Shown here: positions 1,948 through 46,137 of the stretch, piece by piece
Position numbering within the stretch: position 1 is the first letter of the stretch
Layout of the letters: each line of letters opens with the position of its first letter
Source of the DNA: a virus
IMG/VR virus record: IMGVR_UViG_3300044699_000023
Coordinates: 1-46,436 of that record
Length of the DNA: 46,436 nt
Strand: one strand, 5' to 3'
Notes under the pieces: generated by a model
Databases searched by the model: none
Told to the model about the DNA's origin: nothing
Seen by the model: the letters and a program-made list of their open reading frames with translations, nothing else
Program-made: the position numbers and the translations under genes

Positions 1948-2094
1948 ATGCCGTTCAGTTGGGGCGGCGTCACGCTGGCGATCGAAGGCGCGCGGATCAT
2001 GTGGCTGATGTATCTCGGCGCCTGGGCCGTCGTCTTGATCGCGTGTGGTGTGACGTCGCTCCTGCTGAAGCTGGTGAGAGGATCACATGGCTGA
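1948..2094 (+). CDS. Small single-pass membrane protein (48 aa)
   Basis: A 48-codon frame starts at the ATG at 1948, just after the previous TAA. It contains one strong hydrophobic segment (about residues 17-40, MWLMYLGAWAVVLIACGV) and a basic C-terminus (LLKLVRGSHG). Its stop overlaps the start of the 2087 gene by eight bases. Size, hydrophobicity and placement fit a phage membrane miniprotein such as a holin or spanin accessory. The ribosome-binding site is weak, so translation may depend on coupling. Confidence 0.5.
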   Translation: MPFSWGGVTLAIEGARIMWLMYLGAWAVVLIACGVTSLLLKLVRGSHG

Positions 2095-3202
2095 GCGACC
2101 GCTTGCGTTCATCATCGAGGGAAAGCCGAACATCCCGATCCAGCTCGAACGCAATGACGGCTTCGATCAGACGGTGCCGACCAACGGCGACGGCTACGCG
2201 CTCTTCGCCGTCGTGCCTGAATCACCGTGGGATGTGAACATCCACATACACGCCGCCGGCTTCGAGCCTTACGACCACGTCCTGAGCTCACTGATCCCTG
2301 GCGGCATTCCCGCCGGCGGGCACAACCTCTTCGTCGGTCAGCCGTCGCATCCGATCACGCCCGGCTTCGACATCGTGCTGCCGCCGCTCAAGTCGAGCGC
2401 GCTGCCGCGCATCGTCGCCGGCCGATTCGATTTCTTCACCGAGCACGGGCAGCGGCACGTGATCGTCGGCTCGACGGAGCTGATGCTCGGCTGGCGCTAC
2501 GATCTCGAAGGCGCCGACGCGATCCGGCCGGTGCTCGAACAACGGCGCGCGCTGCGCTTCAACAACCTGCGCGTGCTTTGGCAGAAGGGGCCCGGCAGCA
2601 ACGGGCTCACCGCGCCCTGGCAGATGCCCACGGCGAAGATGCGCAGCTTCCTCTCGCTGCTCGCCGAGTATGGCTTCTACTGCGAGGGCTGCATCCTGGC
2701 CGATCAGCAATCCTTCAGCGACCCGCACGTGCGCGTCGACGGCGTCCGGGCGGCGACGGCCGGCATCACGAACCACTTCGAGCAGCTCGGGAACGAGTAT
2801 CAAAAGAACGGCTTCGAGCCGCGAGACTTCAGCCGGCCGACCGATCGGCTCGCGACGAACGCCTCGGCCGTCACCGGCGGCGCCGATGCGCAGCCGTATT
2901 GGGACTACTTCACCTTCAGTGGCGAGCGCGACCCGGCGCAGAAGGCGATCCGCGAATATGGCCCGATCGAGTTCATCGCCGGCGCCGGCGCGTGGGGCGG
3001 CCTGGTCGCCATCTGCGGCGAGGGCTTCAAACCTGGGCAGACGTCGAGCGACCCGAGGGCCTTCTACGCGGCCGGCGCGCAGGCCCGCAGCGCCTGCGGC
3101 GGCCGGTATCATACCGATGCAGGGACCGCCGGCAACTGTCGGCTTTTTAACACCCTGGAGCTGACGTGCGGCCGCGCCTTCACCGAGGGCCTGCTCGGCT
3201 GA
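2087..3202 (+). CDS. Glycoside hydrolase-like tail protein (371 aa)
   Basis: Residues 1-60 look like a small beta-sandwich or carboxypeptidase-regulatory-like domain. The remainder reads as a TIM-barrel hydrolase: a segment with LRFNNLRVLWQ, a helix ending at LAEYGFYCEGCIL, then LGNEYQKNGF. The Asn-Glu pair there resembles the acid/base motif of clan GH-A glycosidases. A later FTFSGERD and a C-terminal HTDAG...LTCGRAF segment could complete the active site. It is the last gene of the late operon, where host-surface-binding or depolymerising tail proteins usually lie. The hydrolase assignment is by motif only and no exact family is recognised. Confidence 0.5.
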   Translation: MAERPLAFIIEGKPNIPIQLERNDGFDQTVPTNGDGYALFAVVPESPWDVNIHIHAAGFEPYDHVLSSLIPGGIPAGGHNLFVGQPSHPITPGFDIVLPPLKSSALPRIVAGRFDFFTEHGQRHVIVGSTELMLGWRYDLEGADAIRPVLEQRRALRFNNLRVLWQKGPGSNGLTAPWQMPTAKMRSFLSLLAEYGFYCEGCILADQQSFSDPHVRVDGVRAATAGITNHFEQLGNEYQKNGFEPRDFSRPTDRLATNASAVTGGADAQPYWDYFTFSGERDPAQKAIREYGPIEFIAGAGAWGGLVAICGEGFKPGQTSSDPRAFYAAGAQARSACGGRYHTDAGTAGNCRLFNTLELTCGRAFTEGLLG

Positions 3203-3211
3203 GCTCTTGCA

Positions 3212-3229
3212 ATGTTCCACGTGGAACAT
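3212..3229. promoter_or_regulatory. Perfect 18-bp parS-like palindrome
   Basis: ATGTTCCACGTGGAACAT is a perfect palindrome lying ten bases after the stop of the tail gene, in a non-coding gap. Its 16-bp core (3213-3228) matches, from memory, the chromosomal parS site bound by ParB/Spo0J-type proteins, in the Pseudomonas-like variant. It has no loop and no T-run, so it is not a terminator. I found no second copy in the window, and no ParA or ParB gene. Confidence 0.8.
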
Positions 3230-3270
3230 CTGCGCAGCAGCGTGCAGCGGCGGCCGGGCGTCACGATTTT

Positions 3271-3299
3271 GTTGCCAACGGCTGAGAAGGGCGTAAACT
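3271..3299 (+). promoter_or_regulatory. Sigma70-like promoter with overlapping GTTG-N-CAAC operator
   Basis: The -35 element TTGCCA (3272-3277) and -10 element TAAACT (3294-3299) are separated by 16 bases. GTTGCCAAC (3271-3279) is an odd palindrome of the same type, and in the same register over the -35 box, as at 3745, 8101, 11063 and 15843. It probably drives the 3426 membrane-protein gene. Transcription could also start near ATG 3304, which would leave almost no leader. Confidence 0.6.
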
Positions 3300-3425
3300 C
3301 TTGATGCCACACCGACTACTCGGGCCGGGCAGCCTGTTCATCGACGCCCTACGGGCGTCAGTTGCCGGCGGCGCGATCTTCATCGCGGGGCTAGTAACGA
3401 CGTCCGACTATCAGGGGGGAAGGCT

Positions 3426-3743
3426 GTGCCGCCAGTCTCAGGCACCGAGGGGCTGCTCGAAATGGCGATCCGGCAGGGCGGGCTGCTGCTCGTGCTGGTC
3501 GTCGTCCTGTTCTTCTACCGTCGCGACTACGTCAAGCTGACGGATTTCTGGCAGAAGCAAAGCGACCAGTGGGCGACGCAGACGGCGATGCTCGTCGAGC
3601 TCACCAAGGGCACGACCAGGGCACTCACTGACGACGCTGCAGCGACGCGCGAGATGTCGATCGTCATGCACCAGGCGAAGAACGTGATGGCGGCGTATCT
3701 GCCTGGCCGACGCGATGACGACCTCACTCGGCGCCCGTCCTGA
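3426..3743 (+). CDS. Membrane-anchored coiled-coil protein (105 aa), holin/spanin-like
   Basis: A GTG start is chosen because GGGGGGAAGG precedes it at the right distance. Residues about 18-34 (QGGLLLVLVVVLFFYRRDY) form one membrane segment with a basic cytoplasmic-type edge. A helical, partly coiled-coil domain follows. This resembles small phage lysis proteins (inner-membrane spanin or class III holin), but the family is not recognised. Alternatively, one missing G in the six-G run before the GTG would fuse it to an upstream frame starting at ATG 3304. That frame encodes another hydrophobic segment, giving a two-segment protein. Confidence 0.5.
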   Translation: MPPVSGTEGLLEMAIRQGGLLLVLVVVLFFYRRDYVKLTDFWQKQSDQWATQTAMLVELTKGTTRALTDDAAATREMSIVMHQAKNVMAAYLPGRRDDDLTRRPS

Positions 3744-3744
3744 A

Positions 3745-3776
3745 TTGTTGACAACATCGCACCCCGCAGCTACCCT
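3745..3776 (+). promoter_or_regulatory. Sigma70-like promoter with GTTG-A-CAAC operator
   Basis: TTGACA (3748-3753) and TACCCT (3771-3776) are 17 bases apart. The -35 box lies inside the palindrome TGTTGACAACA (3746-3756). The predicted start site, about seven bases after the -10 box, coincides with the A of the ATG at 3783. No ribosome-binding site is present, so the message is probably leaderless. This promoter would open the recombination operon at 3.8-7.9 kb. Confidence 0.7.
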
Positions 3777-4300: not shown

Positions 4301-5319
4301 ATGACAACCAAACGAAAGAAAGCGGCGAAGCCGTTGACGGCGCTCGCGCGCCGGCCCGTGCGTCGCGTCGAGCAGCACGGGGATCTCGTCGTGCGCCGGC
4401 GCTCGCAGCTCGTCGCGCCGGCGCCGAGTTTCCCGACGTCGGGAAACGACCTGAACGTGCTCGGCGAGGAGACGGCGCTCGGGGCGCTCGGCCTGGTCGA
4501 GATCAAGCTGACGAAGGCGGAAGAGAAAGTGCTCGCCGAGCCGGTGCGCGTCGACGACGTCGAGATCAAGCCGAACGGCCGGCCGTTCCTCTCACACCCG
4601 GATATACGCGCTGGTTCAATCGCGCCTTCGGGCGCCTCGGCTGGAACCTGGTGCCGCGCGCGAAGCCGATGCGCAGCGGCAACAGCGTCGTCTGCCCGTA
4701 TGTGCTCTACATCCACGGCAAGCCGGCGGCGATGGCGTTCGGTGAGCAGGAGTATTTCGACGACAACAAAGATCAGACCTACGGCGACGCGCTCGAAGCG
4801 ACGGTCGCCTCGGCGTTGCGGCGCTGCGCGAAGCGGCTCGGCGTCGGTCTGGAGCTGTGGGATCGCACCTGGCTGAATCACTTCATGGCGACGCGCTGCA
4901 TCAAGGTGCTGACGACGTCGCACGAGAAAAACCCGTATCGCTGGCGGCGCCTGATCGATCCGCCCTTCTGGAACGAAGTCGGCAACCGTGGAGGTGAGCG
5001 AGTGCAGCAGCAACAGCAGCGGCGCCAGGCGCCAGGGCATCACGACGGCAACGGCGAGCAGCCCATCACCGCGCCGCAGCGCAAAAGATTGTTTGCCATT
5101 CTGCGCAGTAGTGGGCGCGACGAGCCGACCTTCCGCGCCTGGCTCAAGGGACACTATCAGCTCGACTCGACGAAGGGCATCAAGCAGAAAGACTACGACG
5201 TCATCGTCGCGGCGATCGAGTCGCCGGCGCCGATGTTCGCAAACCCGCCGCGGCAGACTGACGACGAGAGCAAGATGCACGAGGGCCCACACGAGCGCGA
5301 GCCAGGAGAGGAAGGATGA
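4301..5319 (+). CDS. Rad52/Mgm101-like single-strand DNA annealing protein (one frameshift)
   Basis: This recombinase would anneal complementary single strands during phage recombination. AAAAGGAA precedes the ATG at 4301. The reading frame shifts once near 4600; adding one G to GG there gives LSHPGYTRWFNRAFGRLGW and one protein of about 339 residues. The core motif GDALEATVASALRRCAKRLG followed by GLELWDRTW closely resembles the conserved helix of Mgm101 and Rad52-type annealing proteins. After a Gln-rich linker, a C-terminal domain (ITAPQRKRLFAILRSSG...) resembles tails found on other phage annealing proteins. The exonuclease gene two genes downstream makes a typical two-component recombination module. 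A 20-bp palindrome lies inside the gene at 4428. Confidence 0.75.
4428..4447. repeat. 20-bp perfect palindrome, copy 1 of 3
   Basis: GTTTCCCGACGTCGGGAAAC is a perfect 20-bp palindrome inside the annealing-protein gene. Its TTCCCGACGTCGGGAA core recurs in full at 12444, and 14 bp of it at 26769. Here it is read as Phe-Pro-Thr-Ser-Gly-Asn; at 12444 it is read in another frame. The conservation is therefore of DNA rather than protein. Confidence 0.85.
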
Positions 5320-8100: not shown

Positions 8101-8134
8101 GTTGTTGACAACAACTTCAGCCGCTCGCTAGACT
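8101..8134 (+). promoter_or_regulatory. Sigma70-like promoter with full 15-bp operator
   Basis: GTTGTTGACAACAAC (8101-8115) is an odd perfect palindrome containing the -35 box TTGACA (8105-8110). TAGACT (8129-8134) is the -10 box, 18 bases away. The start site would fall near 8141, followed by TAGGGGGTAG and the ATG at 8155. It would drive the 8155-10456 operon. The identical 15-mer occurs at 15843. Confidence 0.75.
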
Positions 8135-10663: not shown

Positions 10664-11062
10664 ATGCGCACCGGCGGCTACGTCACTTACCGGATTTGGC
10701 GGCTCGACCGAAAGCCGGGCCGCTGCAAGTATTGCCAGGCGCCGATCGTGTGGGCGCTGACCGATGAGGGCCGGCGCATCCCGCTGAACGCGCACGAGCG
10801 AGCGATCCGCCAGGAGAAGCACCCGAAGACGCAGGTAGCCTTCGATGTCTTTCCTGGGACGGCCTCGCACCTCTGGACCTGCACCGAGAAGCCGCGCTCG
10901 CCGCGCGCGCCGAAGGCCGAGCCGGCGCCGTTCTGCGTCTGCACGCATCGACGCCGCGACCACGTCGACGGGCACGGGGCCTGCTACCACGTCAGCCGGA
11001 TGTGCGAGTGTCGCGTCTTCCGGCCGGCGCCGCGCGTGGCTCGACCTGACTCGCTCTTTTGA
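10664..11062 (+). CDS. Zinc-binding hypothetical protein with two Cys clusters (132 aa)
   Basis: GGAGG nine bases upstream supports the ATG at 10664. The N-terminal domain has CKYCQAPIVWALTDEG, a half zinc ribbon followed by hydrophobic strands. The C-terminal domain (about residues 90-118) is very Cys/His-rich: CVCTHRRRDHVDGHGACYH, then MCECRVF. Two metal sites are likely. Its role may be nucleic-acid binding. It is transcribed away from the possible origin. No specific family is recognised. Confidence 0.6.
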   Translation: MRTGGYVTYRIWRLDRKPGRCKYCQAPIVWALTDEGRRIPLNAHERAIRQEKHPKTQVAFDVFPGTASHLWTCTEKPRSPRAPKAEPAPFCVCTHRRRDHVDGHGACYHVSRMCECRVFRPAPRVARPDSLF

Positions 11063-11094
11063 TGTTGACAACAACGGGCGTTGTTCACAACAAT
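11063..11094 (+). promoter_or_regulatory. Promoter with tandem operator palindromes
   Basis: TGTTGACAACAAC (11063-11075) holds the -35 box TTGACA (11065-11070). A second, slightly degenerate copy, GTTGTTCACAACAAT (11080-11094), begins five bases later and covers the -10 box AACAAT (11089-11094). Two copies over -35 and -10 are a typical repressor layout. The gene at 11107 has no clear ribosome-binding site. Confidence 0.65.
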
Positions 11095-12410: not shown

Positions 12411-13483
12411 TGGGCGACGAGAAGCCGCTCGGGCCGCGACCAGTTCCCGACGTCGGGAAACAGTTCAGCCTTTTCGAGACGCATCCGATCACGCTCGCCG
12501 GCTTCACACTCAAGGCGCGGCGCGCGGTGCCAGTCGGCCGGCCGACGCTGGACGAGTGGACCGGCGCCTTTCACTTCGCGTATGCGGCTGAGGAGAGCTC
12601 GCCGTTTTGGATCGGCGATCTCTGGAACTACGCCGAGGGGCGCGGCGACTGGCGCGAGAAGATCCCGCAGGCGCTCGCCGACATCGGCCTCGACGTGAAG
12701 ATCAAAACGATCTACAACCACGGTTCCGTAGCGCGTGCCGTCAGCAGTGACCGGGCACGCGCCGCGGCGCCGACCTGGTCGCACGCGAGCGAAGTCGCGG
12801 AGCTCGAAGACGACGAGCAAGTCGAGCTCCTCGAACAAGCGCAGACGGAAGACTGGACGGTGCGCGACCTGCGCCTCGAAATCCGCGCGAAGAAACGCAC
12901 GAAGATCGTCGATGGGCAGGCGCCGCTCGATGGGATGTATCGCGTCATCTACGCCGATCCGCCCTGGAGCTACGGCAACAGCGGCGTCATCAACAGCGGC
13001 GACAACTACGGGCGGGCAGCGCGGCACTATCCGAGCATGACGATCGACGAGCTGTGCAAGCTACCCGTCGAGGCGCACGCCAGACCTGACAGCGTGCTCT
13101 TCTGTTGGGTGACGGCGCCGCTGCTCTACGAGAACCCCGGCCCGCGCGAGGTGATCGAAGCCTGGGGATTCGAGCCGAAGACGAGCGTCGTGTGGGACAA
13201 GGTTCGACACAACTTCGGCAGCTACGTCAGTGTGCGGCACGAGTTCTTGATCATCGCGACGCGCGGCTCGTGTTTGCCGGATCGACCGACGCCGATGCCC
13301 GATAGCGTGCAGACGATCCGTCGAGGCGACGTGCACAGCCAGAAGCCGGAAGAGTTCCGCACGCTGATCGAAAAGCTCTACGACGGGCCGTATCTGGAGC
13401 TCTTCGGCCGCACCAGGGTGAAGGGGTGGAAGGTGCACGGCAACGATTCGCGGCTGTGGGCCAAGGAAGCCGCCGCCTCGTGA
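12410..13483 (+). CDS. MT-A70 family DNA adenine methyltransferase (357 aa)
   Basis: Residues 175-350 form the MT-A70 methyltransferase domain. VIYADPPWSYG contains the catalytic DPPW at residues 183-186. It is followed by YPSMTIDELCKLPV, FCWVTAPLL and EAWGFEPKTSVVWDK, the usual conserved blocks, and HSQKPEEFRTLIE near the end. It would add a methyl group to the N6 position of adenine in DNA using S-adenosylmethionine. The N-terminal 170 residues form an extra helical domain (WIGDLWNYAEGRGDW...) seen in other phage MT-A70 proteins. Such enzymes often protect phage DNA. The next gene looks like a PD-(D/E)XK protein, so the two may work together. Confidence 0.85.
   Translation: MGDEKPLGPRPVPDVGKQFSLFETHPITLAGFTLKARRAVPVGRPTLDEWTGAFHFAYAAEESSPFWIGDLWNYAEGRGDWREKIPQALADIGLDVKIKTIYNHGSVARAVSSDRARAAAPTWSHASEVAELEDDEQVELLEQAQTEDWTVRDLRLEIRAKKRTKIVDGQAPLDGMYRVIYADPPWSYGNSGVINSGDNYGRAARHYPSMTIDELCKLPVEAHARPDSVLFCWVTAPLLYENPGPREVIEAWGFEPKTSVVWDKVRHNFGSYVSVRHEFLIIATRGSCLPDRPTPMPDSVQTIRRGDVHSQKPEEFRTLIEKLYDGPYLELFGRTRVKGWKVHGNDSRLWAKEAAAS
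12444..12459. repeat. 16-bp palindrome, copy 2 of 3
   Basis: TTCCCGACGTCGGGAA lies 34 bases inside the methyltransferase gene and is read there as Pro-Asp-Val-Gly. The 18 bases 12441-12458 are identical to 26765-26782. The copy at 4428 is in a different reading frame. Confidence 0.85.
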
Positions 13484-14001: not shown

Positions 14002-14515
14002 GCGTGCGCGTCGGCGTCGTCATCGTGCTGCTGCTGCTCTTCGTCACGCCCGCGGCCGCGCAGCCGTTGCTCTTCGACAAATACTTCGAGTCGCACGCGA
14101 CGCCGACCGAGCAGAAGGTCGCCGGCGCGGTGTCCTGGGTCACAGCGATCGCGCCCGTCGTGTGGGATGGCTGGCAAAGCTGCGGCGCCGAGACGACGCG
14201 CAGCCGGCGGGCGTGCGCGCTCGAAGCGACGCGCGTCAGCCTGACCTATGTCGCCGTGACGATCGTCAAGCGGGCCGTGCATCGCAGTCGACCGTGCGCG
14301 CCGAACGACTGCGGCCCCGACGTCAATCCTGAGCACAGCTTCTACAGCGCACACTCGGCGCTGCGATGACGGCGCTCTGTGGCCCGCAGACGTCTCACGT
14401 GCTGGCGCTCAGCATCACGACGGGCATCCTGCGCGGCATTAGTCGGAACCATTGGGCGACCGACATCATCGCCGGCCTGGGCGCCGGCGGCGCGGTCGGC
14501 TGTCTTGTGAGGTGA
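13998..14515 (+). CDS. PAP2-family phosphatase with signal peptide (one frameshift)
   Basis: The N-terminus MSVRVGVVIVLLLLFVTPAA ending AQ is a typical Sec signal peptide (about 24 residues), so the enzyme would act in the periplasm or membrane. The three phosphatidic-acid-phosphatase motifs are present: KRAVHRSRP (K-X6-RP), HSFYSAHSA, and LRGISRNHWATD (R-X5-H-X3-D). The third lies in another frame after about 14365, so one base is missing or extra there. PAP2 enzymes remove phosphate from lipids or lipid-linked precursors. In a phage this could alter the envelope of the infected cell. It is translated with the upstream PD-(D/E)XK gene through an ATGA overlap. Confidence 0.8.
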
Positions 14516-14518
14516 ACC

Positions 14519-14717
14519 ATGCACGAAGACGATCGCGAGCTCAAGGTTGACGAAGCAACCGCGGCAGTGCAGGCCGCCTTCGAGAAGAGCGCGTGCGGCG
14601 AACCACGCGCTGCGAACCGTCAGCCGCCGGCAGTCTGGATCTGCACGTGCGGCTTCAAGGCGCCGACCGCGAAGGCGCTGCTCGATCATCACAAACGACA
14701 AACACGAAAGGATCTGA
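14519..14717 (+). CDS. Small C2H2-like zinc protein (about 66 aa, probable frameshift)
   Basis: The start ATG lies three bases after the PAP2 stop, with GTGAGGTG upstream. The C-terminal half carries WICTCGFKAPTAKALLDHH followed by KRQ. The Cys-X-Cys plus His-His pattern resembles a single zinc finger. As given, the frame reads through into the next gene. Removing one A near 14700 would end it as HHKRQHERI at TGA 14715-14717, directly before a good start at 14720. I prefer that reading. Confidence 0.45.
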
Positions 14718-14719
14718 CG

Positions 14720-15033
14720 ATGGGCCGGCCGCCGACGAATGGAACCCGCTGCACCCGCTGTAAAGAGCGATGGTCACAGTCACGCCTCGGCCTCTGCCGC
14801 ACCTGCGAGCGCATCGAGTTCGGCGAGAAAGCCGGCGTCGCACGCGAGCGCGAGCACGTCGTGATGATGCAGGCGCGCGAGCTCGCCAGGTTGTCGGCCG
14901 CCGGCGCGCGCGCTACTCGCCGCCGCAGACCTATACGGTCGTCGCCGAAGGCCGCGAATACGAAGTCGTCAACGATCGGCTCGGCTTCGGCCGCGCGTTC
15001 GTCAACCAGGCGCCGGCCGAGGAAGGGCTATGA
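14720..15033 (+). CDS. Zinc-ribbon hypothetical protein (about 105 aa, one frameshift)
   Basis: GAAAGGATC precedes the ATG at 14720. The N-terminus has CTRCKERW and GLCRTCERIEFGEK, a four-Cys zinc ribbon. After about residue 60 the frame shifts (near 14915) to ARYSPPQTYTVVAEGREYEV and ends at TGA 15031-15033, overlapping the next ATG. Four-Cys ribbons commonly bind nucleic acid or partner proteins; the role here is not known. Confidence 0.45.
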
Positions 15034-15238
15034 CGCACACGCGCCAGATGTCGGACAGCGAAGGCGAGTTCATCCGTGGCGCGACACCGAGCGGCGCTGC
15101 GAGCGCGCTGTCGAGGGTAAGCCGTGCGGCGAGTCGATGAAGGTCCGCACGTGGGAGTCGAGCGACGGCGCCTTCGAGGATTATCAGTATCGGTGCGCGG
15201 TCGGTCATGTGATGTGGATCGACGGCATCGACTCATGA
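15030..15238 (+). CDS. Small Cys-rich protein (about 69 aa, one frameshift)
   Basis: It starts with MTHTRQMSDSEGEFIRG at ATG 15030. One frame change near 15085 joins it to RRCERAVEGKPCGESMKVR and then DYQYRCAVGHVMW. The spaced Cys and His residues could form a zinc ribbon. Its stop overlaps the M15 peptidase start (ATGA). No function can be given. Confidence 0.4.
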
Positions 15239-15516
15239 TCCGCGTCAAGTCCGGCGTTACGCCGCGGAATCTGATTCATCGCCGCGGCCGCGGCAAACGT
15301 CGGCCAGGAGCTCGGCCTCGACGTGACGATCACGTCAGGCATGGACGGAAGCACAAGGTCGGCTCGAAGCACTACATCGGCCAGGCGCTCGATTTCCGGC
15401 TGCTCGGCGCGCAGACCGACACCTTCCGCCAGGCGCTCGCGCGCCGTCTCGGGCCCGCCTATCAGGTGCTGCTCGAAGTCGATCACGTGCACGTCGAATA
15501 CGACCCGAAGCCATGA
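15235..15516 (+). CDS. M15-type peptidase, probable endolysin (two frameshifts)
   Basis: The C-terminal part has the metallopeptidase M15 (D-Ala-D-Ala carboxypeptidase/endolysin) signature. VGSKHYIGQALDFR matches S-X-H-X2-G-X-A-X-D, and VLLEVDHVHVEYD matches E-X-D-H-X-H. The central frame is shifted between about 15275 and 15350. Read in the other frame there it gives NVGQELGLDVTITSGMDG, the usual strand before the first zinc ligand. The protein is about 93 residues with no signal peptide, so it would need a holin to reach the cell wall. Two small membrane-protein genes follow immediately. Confidence 0.75.
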   Translation: MIRVKSGVTPRNLIHRRGRGKRRPGARPRRDDHVRHGRKHKVGSKHYIGQALDFRLLGAQTDTFRQALARRLGPAYQVLLEVDHVHVEYDPKP

Positions 15517-15629
15517 TCGATCACGCGCTTTTCGCCGGCGCAATTCTGGAGATCCTTGAGGCGCTCGCGGTTATAGTGATCGTCGGTTCGGTGCTCGCCG
15601 CACTGACGCGGCGGCGGAAAAGGAAGTGA
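15513..15629 (+). CDS. Small membrane protein, holin candidate (38 aa)
   Basis: The ATG at 15513 overlaps the peptidase stop. The product has one long hydrophobic segment (about residues 5-30, ILEILEALAVIVIVGSVLAAL) and a very basic C-terminus (TRRRKRK). Its size and charge layout fit a small holin or antiholin. Position next to the M15 endolysin supports a lysis role, inferred from context. Confidence 0.55.
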   Translation: MIDHALFAGAILEILEALAVIVIVGSVLAALTRRRKRK

Positions 15630-15633
15630 TCTG

Positions 15634-15804
15634 ATGCTGCTCCTCGTCGTCGTCTTGATCTACTGCATCGCGCAATACTGCACGACGCTGGTGCCCGAGA
15701 ACGCGAAGGCGATCGCGCTCGTCGCCCTGGTGATCACCATCCTCTACTGTGCCGGCGCCTTCGCCTACCCGCCGCTGCGGGGCCCGGTCTTTCCCGTCCG
15801 CTGA
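15634..15804 (+). CDS. Two-segment membrane protein, holin candidate (56 aa)
   Basis: ATG 15634 lies just after the preceding gene, with GGAAG ten bases upstream. Two hydrophobic segments are visible, LLLVVVLIYCIAQYC and AIALVALVITILYCAGAF, separated by a short polar turn (TTLVPENAK). This hairpin form is common in class II holins and in small conserved phage membrane proteins near lysis genes. Which of the two small membrane proteins is the holin cannot be decided from sequence. Confidence 0.55.
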   Translation: MLLLVVVLIYCIAQYCTTLVPENAKAIALVALVITILYCAGAFAYPPLRGPVFPVR

Positions 15805-15842
15805 AAAATAAAGTTTGCAGGTCTGTGCAGGTTTGGCCGGCG

Positions 15843-15857
15843 GTTGTTGACAACAAC
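15843..15857 (+). promoter_or_regulatory. Full 15-bp operator palindrome with embedded -35 box
   Basis: GTTGTTGACAACAAC is identical to the site at 8101 and contains TTGACA (15847-15852). No convincing -10 box is found at the right distance, so either the promoter is weak or activator-dependent, or a base is wrong. The gene at 15941 starts 84 bases downstream, with CAGGAG upstream of its ATG. Confidence 0.55.
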
Positions 15858-15940
15858 GCCGCGGCTGTCATCGTGGGCCTGGTTGGCGCGATCCGCTGGC
15901 AATACCGCCAGGCACCGCGCGCCGCAGGAGTCATCCCGCC

Positions 15941-17039
15941 ATGAAATCCGGTCGATCGCTCACCGAGCTCGCCGCCGAACTACAGCGCCAGTCGGAAACC
16001 AAGCGAGACTTCCTCGCGCCGCAGAACAAACTCACCGCCGTCGTCATCGACAACAACGACATCGCCATCGACGGCATCAACGGGGAACCGTTCCCGCTGA
16101 CGAACTACGCGCACGGCCAGGTCGCCGAGCACTGGAGATTCCGAAAAAGTATTACGACCGGATGCGCGCCGAAGACCCGGCCCTGCTCGCGAAGAACGTG
16201 AACACATGGCTCGGCAAGAACGGCGACGAGCGTCGGATGGTCCGCACGCTCGACAAGCAGGTGCGCGCGTTCATGTCGCCGAAGTATCGGCCGCTCGACA
16301 ACTTCGATCTCGCGCAGACGGTGCTGCCGGTCCTGATCGAGAACAAGGTCACGATCACGTCGTGCGAGCTCACCGAAACCCGGATGTTCATCAAGGGCAT
16401 TTTGGAGACGCTCAGCGACGAACTCCCGAGGGCCTCAGCTACGGCACCGCCATCACATGATCAAGCAGGGCGACCGCGGGCGCCTCGTCGCGGCCATCAC
16501 CATCAGCAACAGCGACATCGGCAACGGCACGCTCAAGATCGAGCCGGCGGTCTTCACGACCTGGTGCACGAACCTCGCGATCATGCAGCAGGCAGCGATG
16601 AAGAAATACCACGTCGGCCGCGCGCATGAGGCTGACGCATCGTGGGAAGTGTTTCAGGACGCCACGCGCCGCGCCGACGACGCCGCCTTCTGGCTCAAGG
16701 CGAAAGATGTGACGATGGCGGCGTTCCGCGAGGATCTCTTCCGCAAGGCGGTCGACTCGATCAAGGCCTCGGCGTCGGCGCCGATCGTCAGCGAGGATCT
16801 CCCGAAGGTCGTCGAGGCGACGATCGTCGAGCTCGCGCTGCCGCCGGCGGTCGACAACGGGCTGCTCAAGCTGCTCGCGGCGGGCGGTGACTTCACCCGG
16901 TGGGGCCTGTCGTCGGCGATTCACGCGGCTCGCGAACGACACCAAGGACTACGAAGACGCGACGGCGCTCGAACGCGCCGGCGGCGCCATCCTCGAAGTC
17001 GGCGCGGCCTCGTGGAAGCGCATCGCGGAGGCAGCGTAG
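15941..17039 (+). CDS. DUF932-like protein (several frameshifts, about 365 aa)
   Basis: Read across at least four indels (near 16137, 16425, 16458 and 16915), the gene encodes one protein. The N-terminal part has NNDIAIDGINGEPFPLTNYA and then IPKKYYDRMRAEDPALLAKN. The centre has RAFMSPKYRPLDNFDLAQTV and then CELTETRMF. These blocks resemble the DUF932 phage/plasmid family, whose biochemical role is unresolved. Adding one C at 16137 (GAGCACCTGG) restores HLEIPKKYY, so the breaks look like base-calling errors. TAG at 17037-17039 ends the gene. Confidence 0.65.
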
Positions 17040-17090
17040 CAGGGGCCAGGGGCGCCACCGCGCCGGCCTCTCTCTCTCGCGAGTCACAAC

Positions 17091-17607
17091 ATGAAACTCA
17101 CTACCACGAAGATCCGCGGCCAGGAGCTCACGATCGAAGTCAACGCCGGCGGCACGTTCACCTGCGATTTCGGCGATCACACCTACGAGGCGAAAACGCA
17201 CGCCGAGCTACTCGAACGTCTCGAAGTCGCTGTCAAGAAACACCTGGCGCAGAACCCGGTCGACGTCACGGTGATCGGCCTCGTCTCGCGCGACAAGCGC
17301 AAGATGTCCTACAGCTCGACGCCATTCGAGAAGGCGTCGGATTCGTGCACGCGCTGCTGACGGCGAAGCACGAGCGCCACGGCGGCACCTTCCTGCTGCG
17401 CGCGGTCGACGGCGGGCAGAAGTTCCAAGTCGGCAGCTACAGCAGCGAGGGCACCATCTGCGGCGGCTCACGGTCGAGGAGTCGGTCGAATACATGCGCC
17501 TGGCGTCCGCGGTCGTCGACGCGGAGAAGGCGCTCGCGGCGTTCGAGCTCACGGTCAAGGTAAATGCGCAGGAGCTGCTCGACGCGGCGCGGAAGGAAGG
17601 CAAGTGA
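17091..17607 (+). CDS. Hypothetical protein (two frameshifts, about 171 aa)
   Basis: The frame begins MKLTTTKIRGQELTIEVNAG, a beta-rich start (residues 1-40). It shifts near 17325 to GVGFVHALLTAKHERHGGTF and again near 17465 to RLTVEESVEYMRLASAVVDA. It ends in a helical tail closing with ARKEGK at TGA 17605-17607. A beta domain with a C-terminal coiled coil is likely. No family is recognised. The stop is coupled to the next ATG (TGATG). Confidence 0.45.
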
Positions 17608-17879
17608 TGGCGAAGCGCACCAAGTCGAACACGGCAGGGCTCGCGGCGGCGCTGCGTCGTCGCATCGGCCGCACCGTCTGGTTTCTGCACCCGACACCGC
17701 GCCGTAGTGCGGGGCACGCTGCGCCGCGGGCGCAAGGTCGAAGTGCTCGAACGCATGACGATCCAGCAGTCGGACGAACCGGCGGCGGCCGCACCTACGT
17801 CATGGACGAACGCACCTACACGCTGCCGCGCAGCGTCAAGATCAACTTCGGACCCACACCGATCGAGGTGAAAAAATGA
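17607..17879 (+). CDS. Small hypothetical protein (two frameshifts, about 90 aa)
   Basis: It starts MAKRTKSNTAGLAAALRRRI, then near 17700 moves to the frame reading GTLRRGRKVEVLERMTIQQS. Near 17800 it returns to give YVMDERTYTLPRSVKINFG. The corrected protein is a basic N-terminal helix followed by short beta strands. The function is unknown. Overlapping start and stop codons tie it to both neighbours. Confidence 0.4.
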   Translation: MAKRTKSNTAGLAAALRRRIGRTVWFLHPTPRRSAGHAAPRAQGRSARTHDDPAVGRTGGGRTYVMDERTYTLPRSVKINFGPTPIEVKK

Positions 17880-18258
17880 ACGGCACCGACACGCCGAGCG
17901 GCATCCTGCCGACGATGACTTCTCTCTGGAGCTCGCCAGGCTGCGCCGCGACCCGGCCGCCATCGAGCCGAAGAGCACGACGATCCAGACGACCACCTTC
18001 TACGGGCACGCGGAAGAGTGGATCATCCGCACCATCCGCACCGACGCCGGCGACACGCTCTTCATCCGGCACATCAAGGCAAACGGCGGCGGCGGCAGCT
18101 ACATCATCCCGCCGCCGTCGTCGCGGCCAGCAACCGGCAGCAGAACGTCATCACGACCATCGCCAGGCGCCGCGGGGCCCGCCGTGGGTTTCGAGACGCG
18201 CCAGGCCGCCGGCACGCAGACGAAGCCGCCGGCGCGGCCGCGGAAGGCCGGCAAGTGA
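17876..18258 (+). CDS. Hypothetical protein (one frameshift, about 127 aa)
   Basis: ATG 17876 overlaps the previous TGA. After about ten codons the frame shifts (near 17905) to DDDFSLELARLRRDPAAIEP. It continues through TTTFYGHAEEWIIRTIRT to a Pro/Arg-rich flexible tail ending RPRKAGK at 18258. The middle part is a compact beta-rich unit. The role is unknown. Confidence 0.4.
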
Positions 18259-18488
18259 TGACGCGCGCGCAAGCGTTCGAGATGGCGCAGGCCCTGGCCG
18301 ACAGCCGGGGCACGGCCTTCGAGGTGCACCGTCACGTCGGCGACTACGGCCGGCGCGGCGGTGACATCCCGGCAACCGGCGAGCATCGTGTCGTGCCGTT
18401 CGGCACCGAGCTCCCGGCCTGTTGGGCGCTGCTGGCGATCGCCGAGCCGGCGCTCGGCGTCCCGCCTCGACGAGCTCGGCCCGTGTAG
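18258..18488 (+). CDS. Small hypothetical protein (76 aa)
   Basis: ATG 18258 shares a base with the previous stop. The product begins MTRAQAFEMAQALADSRGTA and contains a GEHRVVPFGTELP segment. Codon use is like its neighbours. It is the last gene before the promoter-like region ahead of the small terminase gene. The C-terminal end might be altered by an undetected indel. Confidence 0.4.
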   Translation: MTRAQAFEMAQALADSRGTAFEVHRHVGDYGRRGGDIPATGEHRVVPFGTELPACWALLAIAEPALGVPPRRARPV

Positions 18489-18551
18489 CCTGCACCGGCC
18501 GCTACGGGCACGAGGGAGGGGCCCGGTATCCCTGGCGAGGGGTGCCGGCCT

Positions 18552-18581
18552 TTCGCATTCTTCGGGCAGCTCGTCTAGAAT
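18552..18581 (+). promoter_or_regulatory. Candidate promoter for the packaging/late operon
   Basis: TAGAAT (18576-18581) is a good -10 box. TTCGCA (18552-18557) is a weak -35 box 18 bases upstream. The predicted start lies about two bases before the GTG at 18590, where no ribosome-binding site exists. Unlike the early promoters, it lacks the GTTG-N-CAAC operator. About 100 bases between 18489 and 18589 contain no gene. Confidence 0.45.
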
Positions 18582-18589
18582 GGCGCTCT

Positions 18590-19145
18590 GTGGCACGCAA
18601 GCGCCCCCGGAACGACCAGGGACCGGGGCCAGGCCAGCAGCTACCCCTCGCCAGCCTCGCCCCTGACGCCCGCGCAGGAGTCCTTCTGCGTCCATTACGA
18701 CGCCAACGGCAACAACGGCGTCCGCGCCTGGCTCAGCAGTCACCCCCGCACCCGCAGTGTCCGAGCAGCGGCGTCTGCGGCCTGGCGGGCGTTGACGAAC
18801 GTTGACATCGCGCGCCGCGTCGACGAGCTCGCGCAGGTGCGCTTCACGAAGGTCGCGATGTCGGGCGAGCAGGCCGCCGCCCTGGTCGCCGGCGATGCGA
18901 CGGCCGACGTGCGGCAGCTCTTCGACGAGGCCGGCAAGATGCTGCGGTGCACGAGTGGCCCGACAGCGTCGCGCGCAGCGTGAAGGCGATTCCGGCCGAC
19001 GCCGGAAGGATGGGCGGTGACGCTCAACGACTCGCTGCAGGCGCGGAAGCTGATCCTCGAACAAACCGGCAAACTCAAATCACCGCTCGCGCCGATCGCC
19101 GACCTGGCGAAGATCCTCGCGGGCGATTTTCAAGAGGGAGAGTGA
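18590..19145 (+). CDS. Terminase small subunit (about three frameshifts)
   Basis: The corrected protein begins with a basic arm (VARKRPRNDQ). It then reads LTPAQESFCVHYDANGNNGV followed by SVRAAASAAWRAL, the helix-turn-helix typical of the Terminase_2 small subunits that recognise phage DNA. It continues with DVRQLFDEAGKML and ends PLAPIADLAKILAGDFQEGE. Frames change near 18655, 18955 and 19000. The large subunit follows about 0.6 kb downstream, as usual. It binds the packaging site and activates TerL. The GTG start is the best available but lacks a ribosome-binding site. Confidence 0.7.
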
Positions 19146-19149
19146 TCCG

Positions 19150-19299
19150 ATGTGGCAAGTCATCCTCGACGCGCTCATGCGGGAAGTGCAGGCGCACCCG
19201 GAGCGCATCCTCAACCTCGTCGAGCAGATCGTCGCGCTGCTGAACAAACACCCCGAGGCGGTCGCGGCGCTGATCAAGCAACTGCCGAAGACCGAGTGA
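19150..19299 (+). CDS. Small helical protein (49 aa)
   Basis: GGGAGAG precedes the ATG at 19150. The whole product is two amphipathic helices (WQVILDALMREVQAHPERIL, LVEQIVALLNKHPEAVAALI). Position between TerS and TerL suggests a packaging accessory, but this is inference. The stop overlaps the next ATG. Confidence 0.5.
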   Translation: MWQVILDALMREVQAHPERILNLVEQIVALLNKHPEAVAALIKQLPKTE

Positions 19300-19415
19300 T
19301 GCTCCCCGACGTCACCTGTCGGCACGGCGTCGCGCTCGATGTGCACTGCTGCAACTGTCACAGCGGGTTTATCTTCGATCTGAATCACGAATGTGAGGAG
19401 CGATGGCTGACGTGA
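19299..19415 (+). CDS. Cys/His-rich miniprotein (38 aa)
   Basis: In 38 residues it carries CRHGVALDVHCCNCHSG and a later NHECEE, enough ligands for one zinc ion. Such zinc-knuckle peptides occur in phage packaging regions, but the role is not known. It overlaps the start of the following gene by 13 bases and is coupled to the previous stop (TGATG). Confidence 0.45.
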   Translation: MLPDVTCRHGVALDVHCCNCHSGFIFDLNHECEERWLT

Positions 19416-19715
19416 AGAAAGCGCGCGAGGAAACCGGCGAGCCGATGCTGCAATGGTTCGAGTATGAGCATCTGCCCGAGCACCTGCAGAAGCGATCGAA
19501 GTCGTTCGCTGCCCTGGCGTGCGAGATCGCCTACGACTACCCGCGCAACCCCGAGCGCACCGTCGCGCTGCGCAAGCTGCTCGAAGCCAAAGACGCCGGC
19601 GTGCGCTCGTGCCTCGGTAGCGAACGGCTGCGCCTTCTGCTGGTGGGCCCGCCTGGTGCTGCTAACAGTCGCGGCGCTCGCGTTCATCTACGGCGTGCTG
19701 CTGCTCGGGCGGTAG
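19403..19715 (+). CDS. Conserved phage protein with possible C-terminal membrane segment (one frameshift)
   Basis: The N-terminal 70 residues (MLQWFEYEHLPEHLQKRSKS, RTVALRKLLEAKDAGVR) match a small conserved phage protein type found near terminase genes; its function is unknown. Near 19605 the frame must shift. One option gives a stop just afterwards. The other gives a hydrophobic tail (WARLVLLTVAALAFIYGVLL) ending TAG at 19713-19715, directly before the TerL ATG. The tail might instead be a separate small membrane protein. Confidence 0.5.
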
Positions 19716-21179
19716 ATGGCCGGCGTGATGACGCGAGCGCGCGAGCGGCTGCTCCGCTGGAAAGCGGACCCGATCGCGATGGTCCGCGAAGAGTTCAAGG
19801 TCGAGCCGTATCCTGGCAGGCCGAGGCGCTCGCGGCGTTCCCGAAAACAAAACCGGCTCGCGCTGAAGGCGTGCAAGGGGCCTGGCAAGACGGCGCTGCT
19901 CGCCTGGGTCGGGCTGAACTTCCTCGCCACGCGACCGAACCCGCGCATCGGTGCGACGTCGATCACCGAGGGCAACCTGAACGCGAACCTCTGGCCGAGT
20001 TCGCGAAGTGGATGCAGCGGTCGACGTTCTTCACTGAGGCCTTCGCCTGGTCGAAGACGACGATCGTCTCGCGCAAAGCACCCGGCACCTGGTGGATTCA
20101 GGCGCGCACACTGGCCGAAGAAAGCGAACGCCGACCAACAGAGCGAGCGCTCGCCGGCTTGCACGAGGATTACGCGATGTGGCTGCTCGACGAGATCGGC
20201 GGCTACCCGCAGGCGATCATGACGACGGCCGAGGCGGTCTTCGCGAGCGGCATCGAGACGAAGGTCGTCGCCGCCGGCAACCCACGCACACGACCGGCCC
20301 GCTGTATCGCGCGTGCACGACCGACCGGCACCTCTGGTATGTCGTGACGATCACCGGCGACCCGGATGATCCGAAGCGGTCGCCGAACATCAGCCTTGAC
20401 TACGCGCGCCAGCAGATCGCCAGCTACGGCCGCGAAAACCCGTGGGTGATGGTGAACGTGCTCGGCCAGTTCCCGCCGTCGAGCATCAACGCGCTGCTCG
20501 GCGTCGAGGACGTCGAGGCCGCGATGAAGCGACACCTACTGAGGCACCAATACGATTGGGCGCAGAAGCGGCTCGGCATCGACGTCGCGCGCTTCGGCGA
20601 CGACCGCACGATCATCTTCCCGCGCCAGGGCCTCGCCAGCTTCCGCCGGTGACGATGCGCACGCAGAACACGATGAACATCGCTGCCAGGGTGATGCGTG
20701 CGCAAACGCAGTGGGAAGCCGAGCTCGTGCTCGTCGACGATACGGGGCATTGGGGCCACGGCGTGATCGACGCGCTGAACACGGCGAACTATCCGGCGGT
20801 CGGCATCAATTACAGCGAGCGCGCGATCGATCCGCGCTACAAGAACCGGCGCGCGGAGATGTGGCTCGAAGGTGCGAAGGCGATCAAGAAACGGCGCGGC
20901 GCTGCCGAATCTGCCCGAGGTGATCGCCGAGTTCACCGAGCCGACCTACACCTACGTCGGCGGCGTGTTCTTGCTCGAAGAAAAGGATCAGATCAAGGCG
21001 CGGCTCGGCGTCTCGCCCGACGTTGCCGAGCCTACATGCTCACCTACGCGCTGCCTGATATGCCGGGCGCGATGCGTCAGGCGCTCGGCCAGGCGCAGCA
21101 CGTGCGCACCGGCGACAGCGTCGACCAGGTGCTGCACTCGGGCGCCGGCCGCGCGCTGACAGGCGACGATGTCGAATGA
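19716..21179 (+). CDS. Terminase large subunit (many frameshifts)
   Basis: This is the packaging ATPase/nuclease. Across about nine indels (near 19815, 19850, 20000, 20105, 20145, 20285, 20640, 20905 and 21030) one protein can be read. ALKACKGPGKTALLAW is the Walker A loop. MWLLDEIGGYP is Walker B with its catalytic Glu. GIDVARFGDDRTI starts the RNase H-like nuclease domain with its first Asp, and VLVDDTGHWGHGVIDAL supplies the second. It would cut concatemeric DNA and pump it through the portal encoded at 22746. The corrected length, about 490 residues, is normal. Confidence 0.85.
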
Positions 21180-21402
21180 CGACGAGGAAGGGCCGTATGC
21201 GAACATCCGCGACCCGGAGCTGCTCGGGCCGTTCGTCGGGCAGCGGTGCGTCGAGATCACGCAGCACGATCGCGAGGAGTTTCTCGAAGACCACGTGAGC
21301 TATATCGCGCTGCATTTCGAGAACGGTTACACTCTGACCTTCGAGATCAACGACGACTGTCACTTCACGATTTCGCCGCCGGATGCGACCGAAGAGACAT
21401 GA
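21169..21402 (+). CDS. Small acidic hypothetical protein (77 aa)
   Basis: ATG 21169 overlaps the TerL end by 11 bases. The product is acidic with a beta-rich C-terminus (YIALHFENGYTLTFEINDDC). It is intact, unlike its neighbours. Position suggests a packaging or head accessory, but no family is recognised. The stop overlaps the next start. Confidence 0.5.
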   Translation: MSNDDEEGPYANIRDPELLGPFVGQRCVEITQHDREEFLEDHVSYIALHFENGYTLTFEINDDCHFTISPPDATEET

Positions 21403-21572
21403 CGCACTTCGTGCTCGACGTCGTCGTCGACTCGCCGGCCGATCAGCTCTCCCTGCTGCTGTGGCTGCGGAAGTGGCAGCAGTTTCATCACAAGGCGACG
21501 ATCAGCGTGAGGGACGCCGATGATCAGAAAGTCAAAGGGCGGCGGCTACCAGGTGAAAAGCGAGTCGGGTAA
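21399..21572 (+). CDS. Small hypothetical protein (57 aa)
   Basis: The ATGA overlap at 21399 supports the start. The product begins MTHFVLDVVVDSPADQLSLL and carries LWLRKWQQFHHKAT. As given it overlaps the 21520 gene by 53 bases. A small indel near 21510 would instead end it at the TGA at 21521, exactly coupled to that gene. I cannot decide between the two. Confidence 0.4.
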   Translation: MTHFVLDVVVDSPADQLSLLLWLRKWQQFHHKATISVRDADDQKVKGRRLPGEKRVG

Positions 21573-21660
21573 GAACCTCTCGAAGCCGGGGCTGTCGCAC
21601 GCGGCCGCGGTGAAGCGGCTGCAGCAGGTCGAATACTTCAAGCACAAGGGGAAACGGTGA
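21520..21660 (+). CDS. Small conserved phage protein (46 aa)
   Basis: This short basic protein (KSKGGGYQVKSESGKNLSKP, HAAAVKRLQQVEYFKHKGKR) is of a type I recognise as recurring in many phages, often near packaging or DNA-metabolism genes, without known function. The ATG at 21520 follows GAGGGACG. The GTG of the next gene overlaps its stop. Confidence 0.6.
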   Translation: MIRKSKGGGYQVKSESGKNLSKPGLSHAAAVKRLQQVEYFKHKGKR

Positions 21661-21923
21661 ACGACGACATGGGCCGAGAAGCCAAAGCACGCGAAGACCG
21701 CACGCCGATCCAGCTCCTCGAAGAGAGCGTCGCCGGCCAAATGGAGCACCTCGAAAACCTGCTGAAGCAGCACGAGGAAGCGAGCGCCGATCGCGAGCGT
21801 CGGCTGCGCGCGCACCTGGTGCGGATGCAGGGCCTGGAGCTCACCGGGCACGTGCGCATCTTCGGCATCAGGTTCCCGATCGCGCTCTGCTTCTCGCTGC
21901 CGAAGCCGCCGAAGGCGCATTGA
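21657..21923 (+). CDS. Hypothetical coiled-coil protein (88 aa)
   Basis: GTG 21657 overlaps the preceding TGA; ATG 21669 is an alternative start. Residues 20-60 form a charged coiled coil (EESVAGQMEHLENLLKQHEE). A short hydrophobic beta stretch near the C-terminus (HVRIFGIRFPIALCFSLP) may bury in a complex or membrane. The function is unknown. Confidence 0.45.
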   Translation: MNDDMGREAKAREDRTPIQLLEESVAGQMEHLENLLKQHEEASADRERRLRAHLVRMQGLELTGHVRIFGIRFPIALCFSLPKPPKAH

Positions 21924-22378
21924 TCAGCGTCCGCGCGATCACCGAAGACGATCGCGCCGCGGTCGTCGAGCTCGCGCTGCCCTTCTGCTTGGCCGAGCCG
22001 TGGGCCGAGCTCCTGGCCGACGTCGATCACGCGGCCGCCATTCACCGCCGGCTCGATTTCGTCTTCAGCCTGGGCGACCGCGGCGTCTGCTTGGTCGCCG
22101 TCGAGGGCGAGGCGCCTGGTCGGCTGCCTGGCCCTGGCCGTCGCCGAGCACGACCTGACGGCCTCGCTGATGGCCGACGAGATCGCCTTTGGGTGCTGCC
22201 TGAGCGCCGCGCGACGTCGGCGGCACACCAGTTATTGCGCTGTGCTAGCGATTGGGCACACTCCCGAGGGGTCAAAACGCTTAGAATGTTCGCGCCGATG
22301 GGCTCGCGGCTTGGCACACTCTATGAGCGCAACGGCTACCTCGCACTCGAAACGGCTTATCTGAAGAGGCTTGCATGA
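21920..22378 (+). CDS. GNAT-like acetyltransferase (frameshifted)
   Basis: The N-terminus (MISVRAITEDDRAAVVELAL) and C-terminus (LGTLYERNGYLALETAYLKR) match the ends of the GCN5-related N-acetyltransferase fold. A central stretch must be read in another frame (about 22115-22190: RLVGCLALAVAEHD) to supply the middle beta strands. GNAT-like genes are common just before the portal in podophages of this kind. The start appears to be TTG at 21920, overlapping the previous stop. Substrate unknown. Confidence 0.55.
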   Translation: MISVRAITEDDRAAVVELALPFCLAEPWAELLADVDHAAAIHRRLDFVFSLGDRGVCLVAVEGEAPGRLPGPGRRRARPDGLADGRRDRLWVLPERRATSAAHQLLRCASDWAHSRGVKTLRMFAPMGSRLGTLYERNGYLALETAYLKRLA

Positions 22379-22741
22379 GTTTCTTCACCGGCGGCGGCGG
22401 GACGACGGCCCGCGCGACCCGACCCAACGCATCGGCGATCAGAGCCGCACCGGCAACATCGGCGGATACGACGCGGGCGGCAGCACGGGCGCCGGCCGGA
22501 AGAACGTCAACAACGCGCCGATCGTCGGCCAGGCGATGACCCGCGAGGAATACAAGGCCTCACAGATGCCGGCGCCGCCGCCATCGACGGCAGCGGCCGC
22601 CTCGCTGGCGCAGGGCGGTGCCAAGTCGGCCGCCGAGCGTCAGCGGAAACGCGCGGCCCGCCGGCGAGCAGCTCGTCGCCGGCGCCGGCAAAGCCGGGCC
22701 TCTCGCCAACCTGCAAGCGGAAGACGTTGATCGGAGCCTGA
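22375..22741 (+). CDS. Small pre-portal protein (two frameshifts, about 122 aa)
   Basis: ATG 22375 overlaps the GNAT stop. Corrected, it reads MSFFTGGGG..., then NNAPIVGQAMTREEYKASQM and an Ala/Pro-rich stretch, and ends LSPTCKRKTLIGA at TGA 22739-22741. Low-complexity proteins with this C-terminal Lys-Thr-Leu-Ile/Leu-Gly ending often sit directly before phage portal genes. The function is unknown. Confidence 0.5.
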
Positions 22742-22745
22742 CCCG

Positions 22746-24518
22746 ATGCCGAGTTACATCGACGAAGCGACGAAGCGGATGCGCTACGAGGCGCTGCGCT
22801 CGGAGCTGTGGCGCGAGCGGGCGACCTTCGACGCGCACTGGCAGGAGCTCGCCGACTACATGATGCCGCGCCGCACGCGGTTCTGGGCCGGCGACCGCAA
22901 CCGCGGCGACAAGCGCAACCAGAAGATCATCGACTCGACGGGCCGCTTCGCCGCGCGCACGCTCGCCTCGGGATTGCACGCCGGCCTCACCTCGCCGGCG
23001 CGCCCGTGGATGAAGCTGACGACGCCCGATCCCGACCTGGCCGAGTTCGGCCCGGTGCGCGAGTGGCTGCACGTCGTGACGCTGCGGATGCTCACGATCT
23101 TCGCGACGTCGAATCTCTACAACGTGCTGCCGCTCGTGTATCTCGACCTGGGCATCTTCGGCACCGCGGCGATGTCGATGATGCAGGACAGCAAGGATCT
23201 CTTTCGGGCCTACAGCTACCCGACCGGCAGCTTCGCGCTCGGGATGGATCATCGCGGCATGGTGTCGACCTTCGTGCGCGACTACGAGCTCACGGTGCGC
23301 CAGGTCGTCGAAGAGTTCGGCGTGCAGGAGAACGGCCGCACGATCGACTGGAGCAACATCAGCGCGACGGTAAAAGACCTGTGGGATCACGGCAACTACG
23401 AGCAGGCGATCGAAGTCACTTGGATCGTGAAGCCGAACGAGAACGCGAACCCGAACCGCGTGCAGTCGAAATACCTGCCGTTCATTTCGTGCCACTTCGA
23501 GACGGGCAGCCGCTCGATGCTCTCGTCGAACACCTCGCTCGATCAGCGGAAGTTCCTGCGCGAGTCGGGATTTAAGACCTTCCCGATCATGGCGCCGCGA
23601 TGGGACATCACCGGCGAAGACAGCTACGGCACCGACTGCCCCGGCATGACGGCGCTGCTGACGTGAAGCAGCTCCAACTGATGCAGAAGAAAAAGGGACA
23701 ACTGATCTCGAAGGCGGTCGACCCGCCGCTCGTCGGGCCGTCGACGCTGCGCACGCAGAAGACGTCACTGCTCGCCGGCGACATCACGTATAACGACTCG
23801 CGCGACGGCATGGCCGGCCTGCGACCGATCCACGAAGTGCGGCTCGAAGGGTTCCAGCATCTGACGAGCGACATGCGTGAGGTGCAATTCCGCATTCAGC
23901 GCGCGTTCTACGAGGATCTCTTCCTGATGATCGCGACGAGCGACGAGAAGCTCGGCGCGCAGCGGCCGACCGCCAGGGAGATCGACGAGCGCCACGAAGA
24001 GAAGCTGCTCGCGCTCGGGCCCGTGCTCGAACGCACGAACGACGAGCTGCTCGACCCGATCGTCGACCGCGCCTTCGACCTGATGGAGACGAACGGCCTG
24101 CTGCCGCCGCCGCCAGAGGAGCTCCACGGCGTGAAGCTGAAGGTCGAATACATCAGCATCCTCGCGACCGCGCAGAAGCTGGTCGGCGTCGCGGCGCAAG
24201 ATCGCTTCCTGCAGTCGAATCGGCGCGATGGTCGAGCAAGGCTTCACCGACGTGATGCACAAGGTGAACCCGTTCCGCGTCGTTGACGACTACGCCGACA
24301 TGCTCGGCGTCGACCCGCGCATCGTGCGCAGCGACGAAGATGCGCAAGCCGACGTCGATAGCGTGCGGCAACAGCAAGCGGCGGCGCAGGCTGCGGAGAC
24401 AGCGAAGAACTTCGGCCAGGCCGCGGCCGCCGGCGCGAAGGCTCCGCTGACAGGTGACACCGCGCTCGCGCGCATCGTGAACTCTGCGAGCGGCATCCCG
24501 GCGGCATCGGTGCCCTAA
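22746..24518 (+). CDS. Portal protein, T7-like head-tail connector (two frameshifts)
   Basis: The N-terminus (DEATKRMRYEALRSELWRER, DYMMPRRTRFW) and the following RNQKIIDSTGRFAARTLASG block are typical of the podovirus head-to-tail connector family. The frame changes near 23655 (adding one base gives TALADVKQLQLMQKKKGQL) and near 24215 (to IGAMVEQGFTDVMHKVNPFR). The C-terminus is Gln/Ala-rich. Twelve copies would form the ring at one capsid vertex, which TerL docks to and the tail attaches to. Corrected length is about 590 residues, normal for the family. Confidence 0.9.
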
Positions 24519-26768: not shown

Positions 26769-26782
26769 TCCCGACGTCGGGA
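26769..26782. repeat. Palindrome copy 3 of 3, non-coding
   Basis: TCCCGACGTCGGGA is a 14-bp perfect palindrome six bases after the capsid stop. With its left flank (CAGT) it is identical over 18 bases to 12441-12458. It is the only copy outside a gene. A weak hairpin (CCGCA...TGCGG) follows at about 26790-26805. Confidence 0.85.
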
Positions 26783-46136: not shown

Positions 46137-46137
46137 T

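Follow-up and report, generated by a model that had tools for sequence, protein, structure and literature searches.

The palindrome and its gap

The window, i.e. the whole stretch of DNA that was analysed, comprises the 46,436 bases (66% GC) of the IMG/VR virus record IMGVR_UViG_3300044699_000023. At positions 3203..3303, an intergenic gap of 101 bp lies between two genes on the plus strand, an upstream gene of 371 aa (2087..3202, +) and a downstream gene for a small, holin-like protein (3304..3743, +), and within this gap we found the perfect 18-bp palindrome ATGTTCCACGTGGAACAT (3212..3229). The non-coding position that an earlier sequence-only reading had given for it was borne out by the gene end at 3202 and the ATG at 3304, and so was its single occurrence: the 16-bp core, which is exactly TGTTCCACGTGGAACA at 3213-3228, has no second match in the window at up to 3 mismatches, and when up to 2 mismatches were allowed across the whole record, the 16-mer was again found only once. 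From base composition, 4.3e-6 exact copies of the 16-mer and 1.2e-7 of the 18-mer are expected, and 3212-3229 is among the three longest perfect palindromes of the genome. Chromosomal-type parS sites are 16-bp palindromes of the form TGTTNCACGTGNAACA with an intact CACGTG core, and positions 3213-3228 have this form. An intrinsic terminator could be ruled out, as no T run follows the palindrome, and the GC skew, which has its minimum near 34 kb, shows no signal at 3212-3229 that would place the palindrome close to an origin.

For the product of the upstream gene, there was no Pfam, PHROG or significant PDB match, so that it could be assigned neither to a family nor to a fold, and its homologues were found in only three IMG/VR contigs. 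The downstream protein has two hydrophobic stretches and a weak match to BhlA that lies below the cut-off; its frame is broken in the window at a run of six G (3414-3419), which has seven G in the close relative G001. In front of this gene, the operator-like TTGTTGCCAACGG (3269-3281) overlaps the promoter-like TTGCCA-16-TAAACT (3272-3299; together 3269..3299, +). The operator-like promoter that the sequence-only reading had seen 42 bases from the palindrome is thus present in the window, but unlike the palindrome it is not conserved in the more diverged relative G002, which weakens the idea that the site serves to control this promoter. A separate operator family, TTGTTGACAACAA, occurs at 3745-3757, 8102-8114, 11062-11074, 11081-11093 and 15844-15856, where it overlaps the -35-like TTGACA in front of genes; G002 retains all five sites, which probably represent repressor operators or early promoters of the phage. 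A second repeated perfect palindrome, with the core TCCCGACGTCGGGA, is present in three copies in the window (4428-4447, 12444-12459 and 26769-26782), and no exact copy of its 12-base core CCCGACGTCGGG was found in G002, which misses part of the genome.

The phage and its relatives

Bases 1-300 are repeated identically at 45950-46249, which leaves about 45,949 unique bases, and the two contig ends are bridged by the sequence of G001; the genome is therefore closed (circular) at about 45.9 kb. Judged from its capsid, portal and tail genes, the phage is a podophage of the BcepC6B/BPP-1/phiV10 type. Among GenBank phages, no DNA similarity to the first 8 kb of the window was detected, and the homologues of the capsid in bacterial genomes, with a best identity of 59%, are scattered over diverse taxa and MAGs, so that no host could be assigned. 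Numerous frameshifts at 14300-24300 and 37203-46136 split the genes for the portal, the terminase, a DUF932-like protein (by eye) and a giant internal virion protein, the latter being one ORF of 2976 aa in G002. As several of the frameshifted genes are intact in relatives, the contig contains indel errors, and the frameshifts in these two regions are probably sequencing indels.

The sequence-only reading had proposed a search for the palindrome in close relatives, a check that it survived: the locus is present in two other IMG/VR contigs, G001 (99% identical) and G002 (about 88% identical in the region), and the 18-mer is intact in the same gap of both. In comparison with G002, the site is kept at 18 of 18 positions, whereas the rest of the gap is poorly conserved, with 38 of 88 columns identical and only 12 of 53 in the columns immediately beside the site. 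At the gap's own conservation rate, 18 of 18 would be expected by chance with a probability of about 3e-7, and the comparison with this one diverged relative thus indicates that the site is kept by selection. The published relatives BcepC6B, AF, Shamal, DC33, Ab31, ctEw122 and phiV10 are all devoid of the site, and parS-like sites were found in only 3 of 50 capsid relatives. Two of these three are located inside coding sequence, one in a terminase gene (peptide LFHVEP) and one in a ParB-N/methylase-like frame (by eye), and we do not regard them as clear orthologues. The site is therefore a feature of a small phage group and not of the whole family.

Sequence identity with parS and the absence of matches to partition genes

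The sequence TGTTCCACGTGGAACA is identical, letter by letter, to parS2 and parS3 of Pseudomonas aeruginosa, which are the perfect palindromes that are bound best by ParB, and one parS2 together with parAB stabilised an unstable plasmid (PMC4368675). More generally, unstable plasmids are stabilised by chromosomal par operons together with one parS, and the chromosomal parS consensus is mainly TGTTNCACGTGAAACA (PMC7022226). Of 34 bacterial genomes surveyed, seven, which belong to several phyla, contain the 16-mer; they are labelled as Nitrospira, Actinomycetota, Pseudomonas, Sphingomonas, Azotobacter, Pseudothauera and a deltaproteobacterium. In four of the seven, it occurs as a pair of sites 0.5-2.3 kb apart. 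The designation as a Pseudomonas-type parS therefore holds for the sequence, which is exactly that of parS2/parS3, but not as a pointer to a Pseudomonas-type host, as the same 16-mer occurs across several bacterial phyla and the phage host thus cannot be read from the site.

In profile scans of the window, G001 and G002, neither ParB_N nor the ParA-type AAA_31 nor the tyrosine integrase domain PF00589 was detected, in agreement with the earlier statement that ParA/ParB genes are lacking. These family scans use a fast first filter, and positive controls were found in 10-14 of 14 genomes. By these scans, the site is not part of a phage-encoded ParABS system, its gene neighbours being the gene without family match and the holin-like gene, and as far as tyrosine integrases are concerned, the phage does not belong to the integrating temperate phages. 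In having a parS-type site and no match to ParB, it resembles phi29.

Occurrence in other viruses

In IMG/VR, at least 120 contigs contain the 16-mer and at least 120 the 18-mer, as compared to 6 contigs for a control palindrome of equal composition and 29 for one with the same CACGTG core and an altered arm. Random flanks would keep only about 1 in 16 of the 16-mer sites as 18-mers. Next to the palindrome, 52% of the listed viral sites have an A and 4% a C, a preference that is absent from the control. When genes were called heuristically by simple codon usage, 96 of the 161 distinct viral sites fell between genes, versus 2039 of 9400 random positions (22%) of that DNA (odds ratio 5.3, p ~1e-24), and the control palindrome is not enriched between genes (5/18 versus 24%). 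About 40% of the viral sites are located in coding sequence, and 34 of 78 intergenic sites lie between two plus-strand genes and 31 between two minus-strand genes. Since sites are enriched between genes, a coding motif (FHVEH, VPRGT or CSTWN) was rejected as the main cause of the viral surplus.

None of 50 parS-bearing viral contigs, most of which are longer than 20 kb, had a match to TIGR00180 ParB, and 49 records, among them the window, G001 and G002, gave no match to ParB_N; as most records are fragments, this is no proof that the viruses lack ParB. A tyrosine integrase was detected in one of 49 parS-bearing records, a scarcity that is suggestive only. The genes beside viral sites include those for terminases, major head proteins, tail tube proteins and a helicase, and the presence of terminase, major head and tail tube genes among the neighbours places the sites in viral DNA. 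A contamination by host chromosomes is disfavoured as a cause of the surplus by these structural gene neighbours and by the contigs without ParB.

Seven or eight of the 112 genes that flank intergenic viral sites (alignment A4, L005-L421) encode terminase large subunits that fall into one PHROG group, which suggests that at least one further group of viruses has a conserved parS position next to the terminase gene. Two viral contigs, L105 (from 4324) and L349 (from 2039), have 3-5 parS-type sites that are spaced by about 1-2 kb and are mostly intergenic; no ParB was found in the L105 contig, and both are candidates for a multi-site capture of host ParB.

Isolates that carry the sequence are phages of Pseudomonas, Stenotrophomonas, Bacillus, Microbacterium, Pseudoalteromonas and others, and Escherichia is not in the ten leading genera among the isolate phage matches. 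Pseudomonas phage Lana likewise has a site of this kind. A control query matched 19 records, 17 of which belong to one Gordonia lineage that matches half of the query. Several parS-type sites are present in Pseudomonas phage XD2 (four), in phi29 (four, TGTTTCACGTGGAACA) and in a Xenohaliotis phage (three), and none of these three has a ParB_N match; the domain was detected in 2 of 11 checked isolates, BUCTxx99 and Tyrumbra. A match is also found in some Klebsiella jumbo phages, which counts against a function in conjunction with host ParB, as the hosts of these phages are not known to have a chromosomal ParABS. In the literature searched, we found no paper with a virus-wide parS survey.

Proposed recruitment of host ParB and alternative explanations

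What could a phage without ParB gain from a parS site? ParB acts as a CTP-dependent clamp: having bound parS, it spreads over the flanking DNA and links it to the nucleoid-associated ParA, and a single parS would therefore suffice to let phage DNA use the host segregation system. We slightly favour the explanation that the palindrome is a parS that loads host chromosomal ParB onto the phage DNA, with retention or positioning of this DNA as its likeliest use. Host ParB would load at the site, slide along the adjacent phage DNA and connect it to ParA on the nucleoid, and the circular or concatemeric phage DNA would thereby ride the host segregation machinery by means of one parS copy. As there is no recognised integrase, such a loading would hold non-replicating genomes and distribute them, i.e. 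phage DNA that is neither replicating nor integrated, as in pseudolysogeny or a carrier state, could be kept close to the nucleoid or handed on to daughter cells. The two parts of this explanation differ in their strength. That ParB binds the site is quite probable: its recruitment is indirectly supported by the identity with parS2/parS3, the selective conservation and the enrichment in viral DNA without ParB genes. For retention or positioning as the use of the site, we regard the case as evenly balanced, and it counts against it that we recognised no genes by which the phage could replicate or be lysogenic in a plasmid-like state. The explanation as a whole is also weakened by the finding that only two other contigs have the site at this position, one of them being 99% identical, and by its absence from the seven published relatives and the rarity of parS-like sites among the capsid relatives.

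The main rival to retention is a control of the holin-like gene, in which ParB would likewise bind, but with a transcriptional benefit, silencing or timing the gene about 75 bp downstream and e.g. delaying lysis genes early in infection. Such a role would be in line with the position of the site directly upstream of the ATG at 3304 and with the repression by P. aeruginosa ParB of promoters beside the intergenic parS3 and parS4 (PMC5521831). Most viral intergenic sites lie between co-directional genes, as this model would have it, though this arrangement is common in phages anyway. However, the promoter-like sequence near the site is not conserved in G002 while the site is, the neighbours in other viruses vary from terminase, capsid and tail tube genes to a helicase gene and thus hardly point to the control of one gene class, and with some 40% of the viral sites lying within coding sequence, we consider a transcriptional benefit rather unlikely. 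A bound ParB could also interfere with the host, either by titration of ParB/SMC from the chromosome origin or by recruitment of SMC for a compaction of the phage DNA. In many bacteria, ParB/parS recruits SMC-ScpAB (PMC10197239), a clamp protein could well be titrated at high phage copy number, and the stolen parS sites of the island SGI1 both stabilise SGI1 and expel its IncC helper (PMC10954446). When phage copies are few, however, one site makes a poor decoy, and we regard interference as improbable.

Equally improbable is an operator of a non-ParB regulator of phage or host that resembles parS by convergence. Palindromic operators are frequent in phage gaps, and this phage has its separate conserved TTGTTGACAACAA family, but the 16 of 16 match to parS is unlike that family, and an enrichment across unrelated viruses needs a single widespread recogniser, as chromosomal ParB is. 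That the palindrome arose by chance, or is functionless DNA that hitch-hiked from a host chromosome, would agree with its absence from distant relatives; in view of the expectation from composition, its conservation against changing flanks, and the viral enrichment and intergenic bias that control palindromes do not have, this is very improbable.

Known systems and general meaning

The sequence-only reading had regarded the use of a host partition system by a virus without its own as unusual, a view that has to be corrected in the light of phi29: a passage in PMC9437464 that cites Meijer et al. 2005 reports that phi29 DNA is trapped in the spore by Spo0J (ParB), and phi29 resembles the phage of the window in being a ParB-less phage with chromosomal-type parS. 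The differences are that the sites of phi29 have mixed arms, that at least one of them is coding (gp10) and that its host forms spores, whereas the window contains one perfect, C/G-armed palindrome between genes of an unrelated podophage. SGI1 is a further mobile element with a stolen parS, which uses the ParAB of the IncC plasmid for its stability (PMC10954446), but this is an integrative element with a plasmid-type ParB/parS, in contrast to the chromosomal-type parS on a phage described herein. With P. aeruginosa, the phage shares the 16 bp of parS2/parS3, the sites of highest ParB affinity, but unlike the chromosomal sites near oriC, there is only one copy and no parAB. In case of P1, extrachromosomal phage DNA is partitioned by the phage's own ParA and ParB/parS. 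ParB/parS partitioning of extrachromosomal phage DNA is also known from extrachromosomal mycobacterial prophages (PMC7157519), which have their own ParA and ParB, unlike the phage of the window, for which none were found.

As a kind of phenomenon, parS capture is thus known from phi29; its setting and above all its breadth appear to be new within the literature searched. The prior view has been that phages bring their own partition genes or go without. We tentatively put forward, as a possibility that still falls short of being the probable one, that non-integrating phages generally capture host ParB by means of a chromosomal-type parS, with hundreds of unrelated ParB-less viruses having selected, mostly intergenic sites. 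The host segrosome would then hold, place or regulate their genomes in infection or dormancy, and the window might represent a clean single-site case. The conserved parS in a ParB-less phage together with the virus-wide surplus suggests that phages often borrow the host segregation machinery, i.e. that the use of host ParB, for which phi29 and sporulation have so far been the best-known case, is common among them, and it would offer a handle on the persistence of non-integrating phages in slow or dividing cells.
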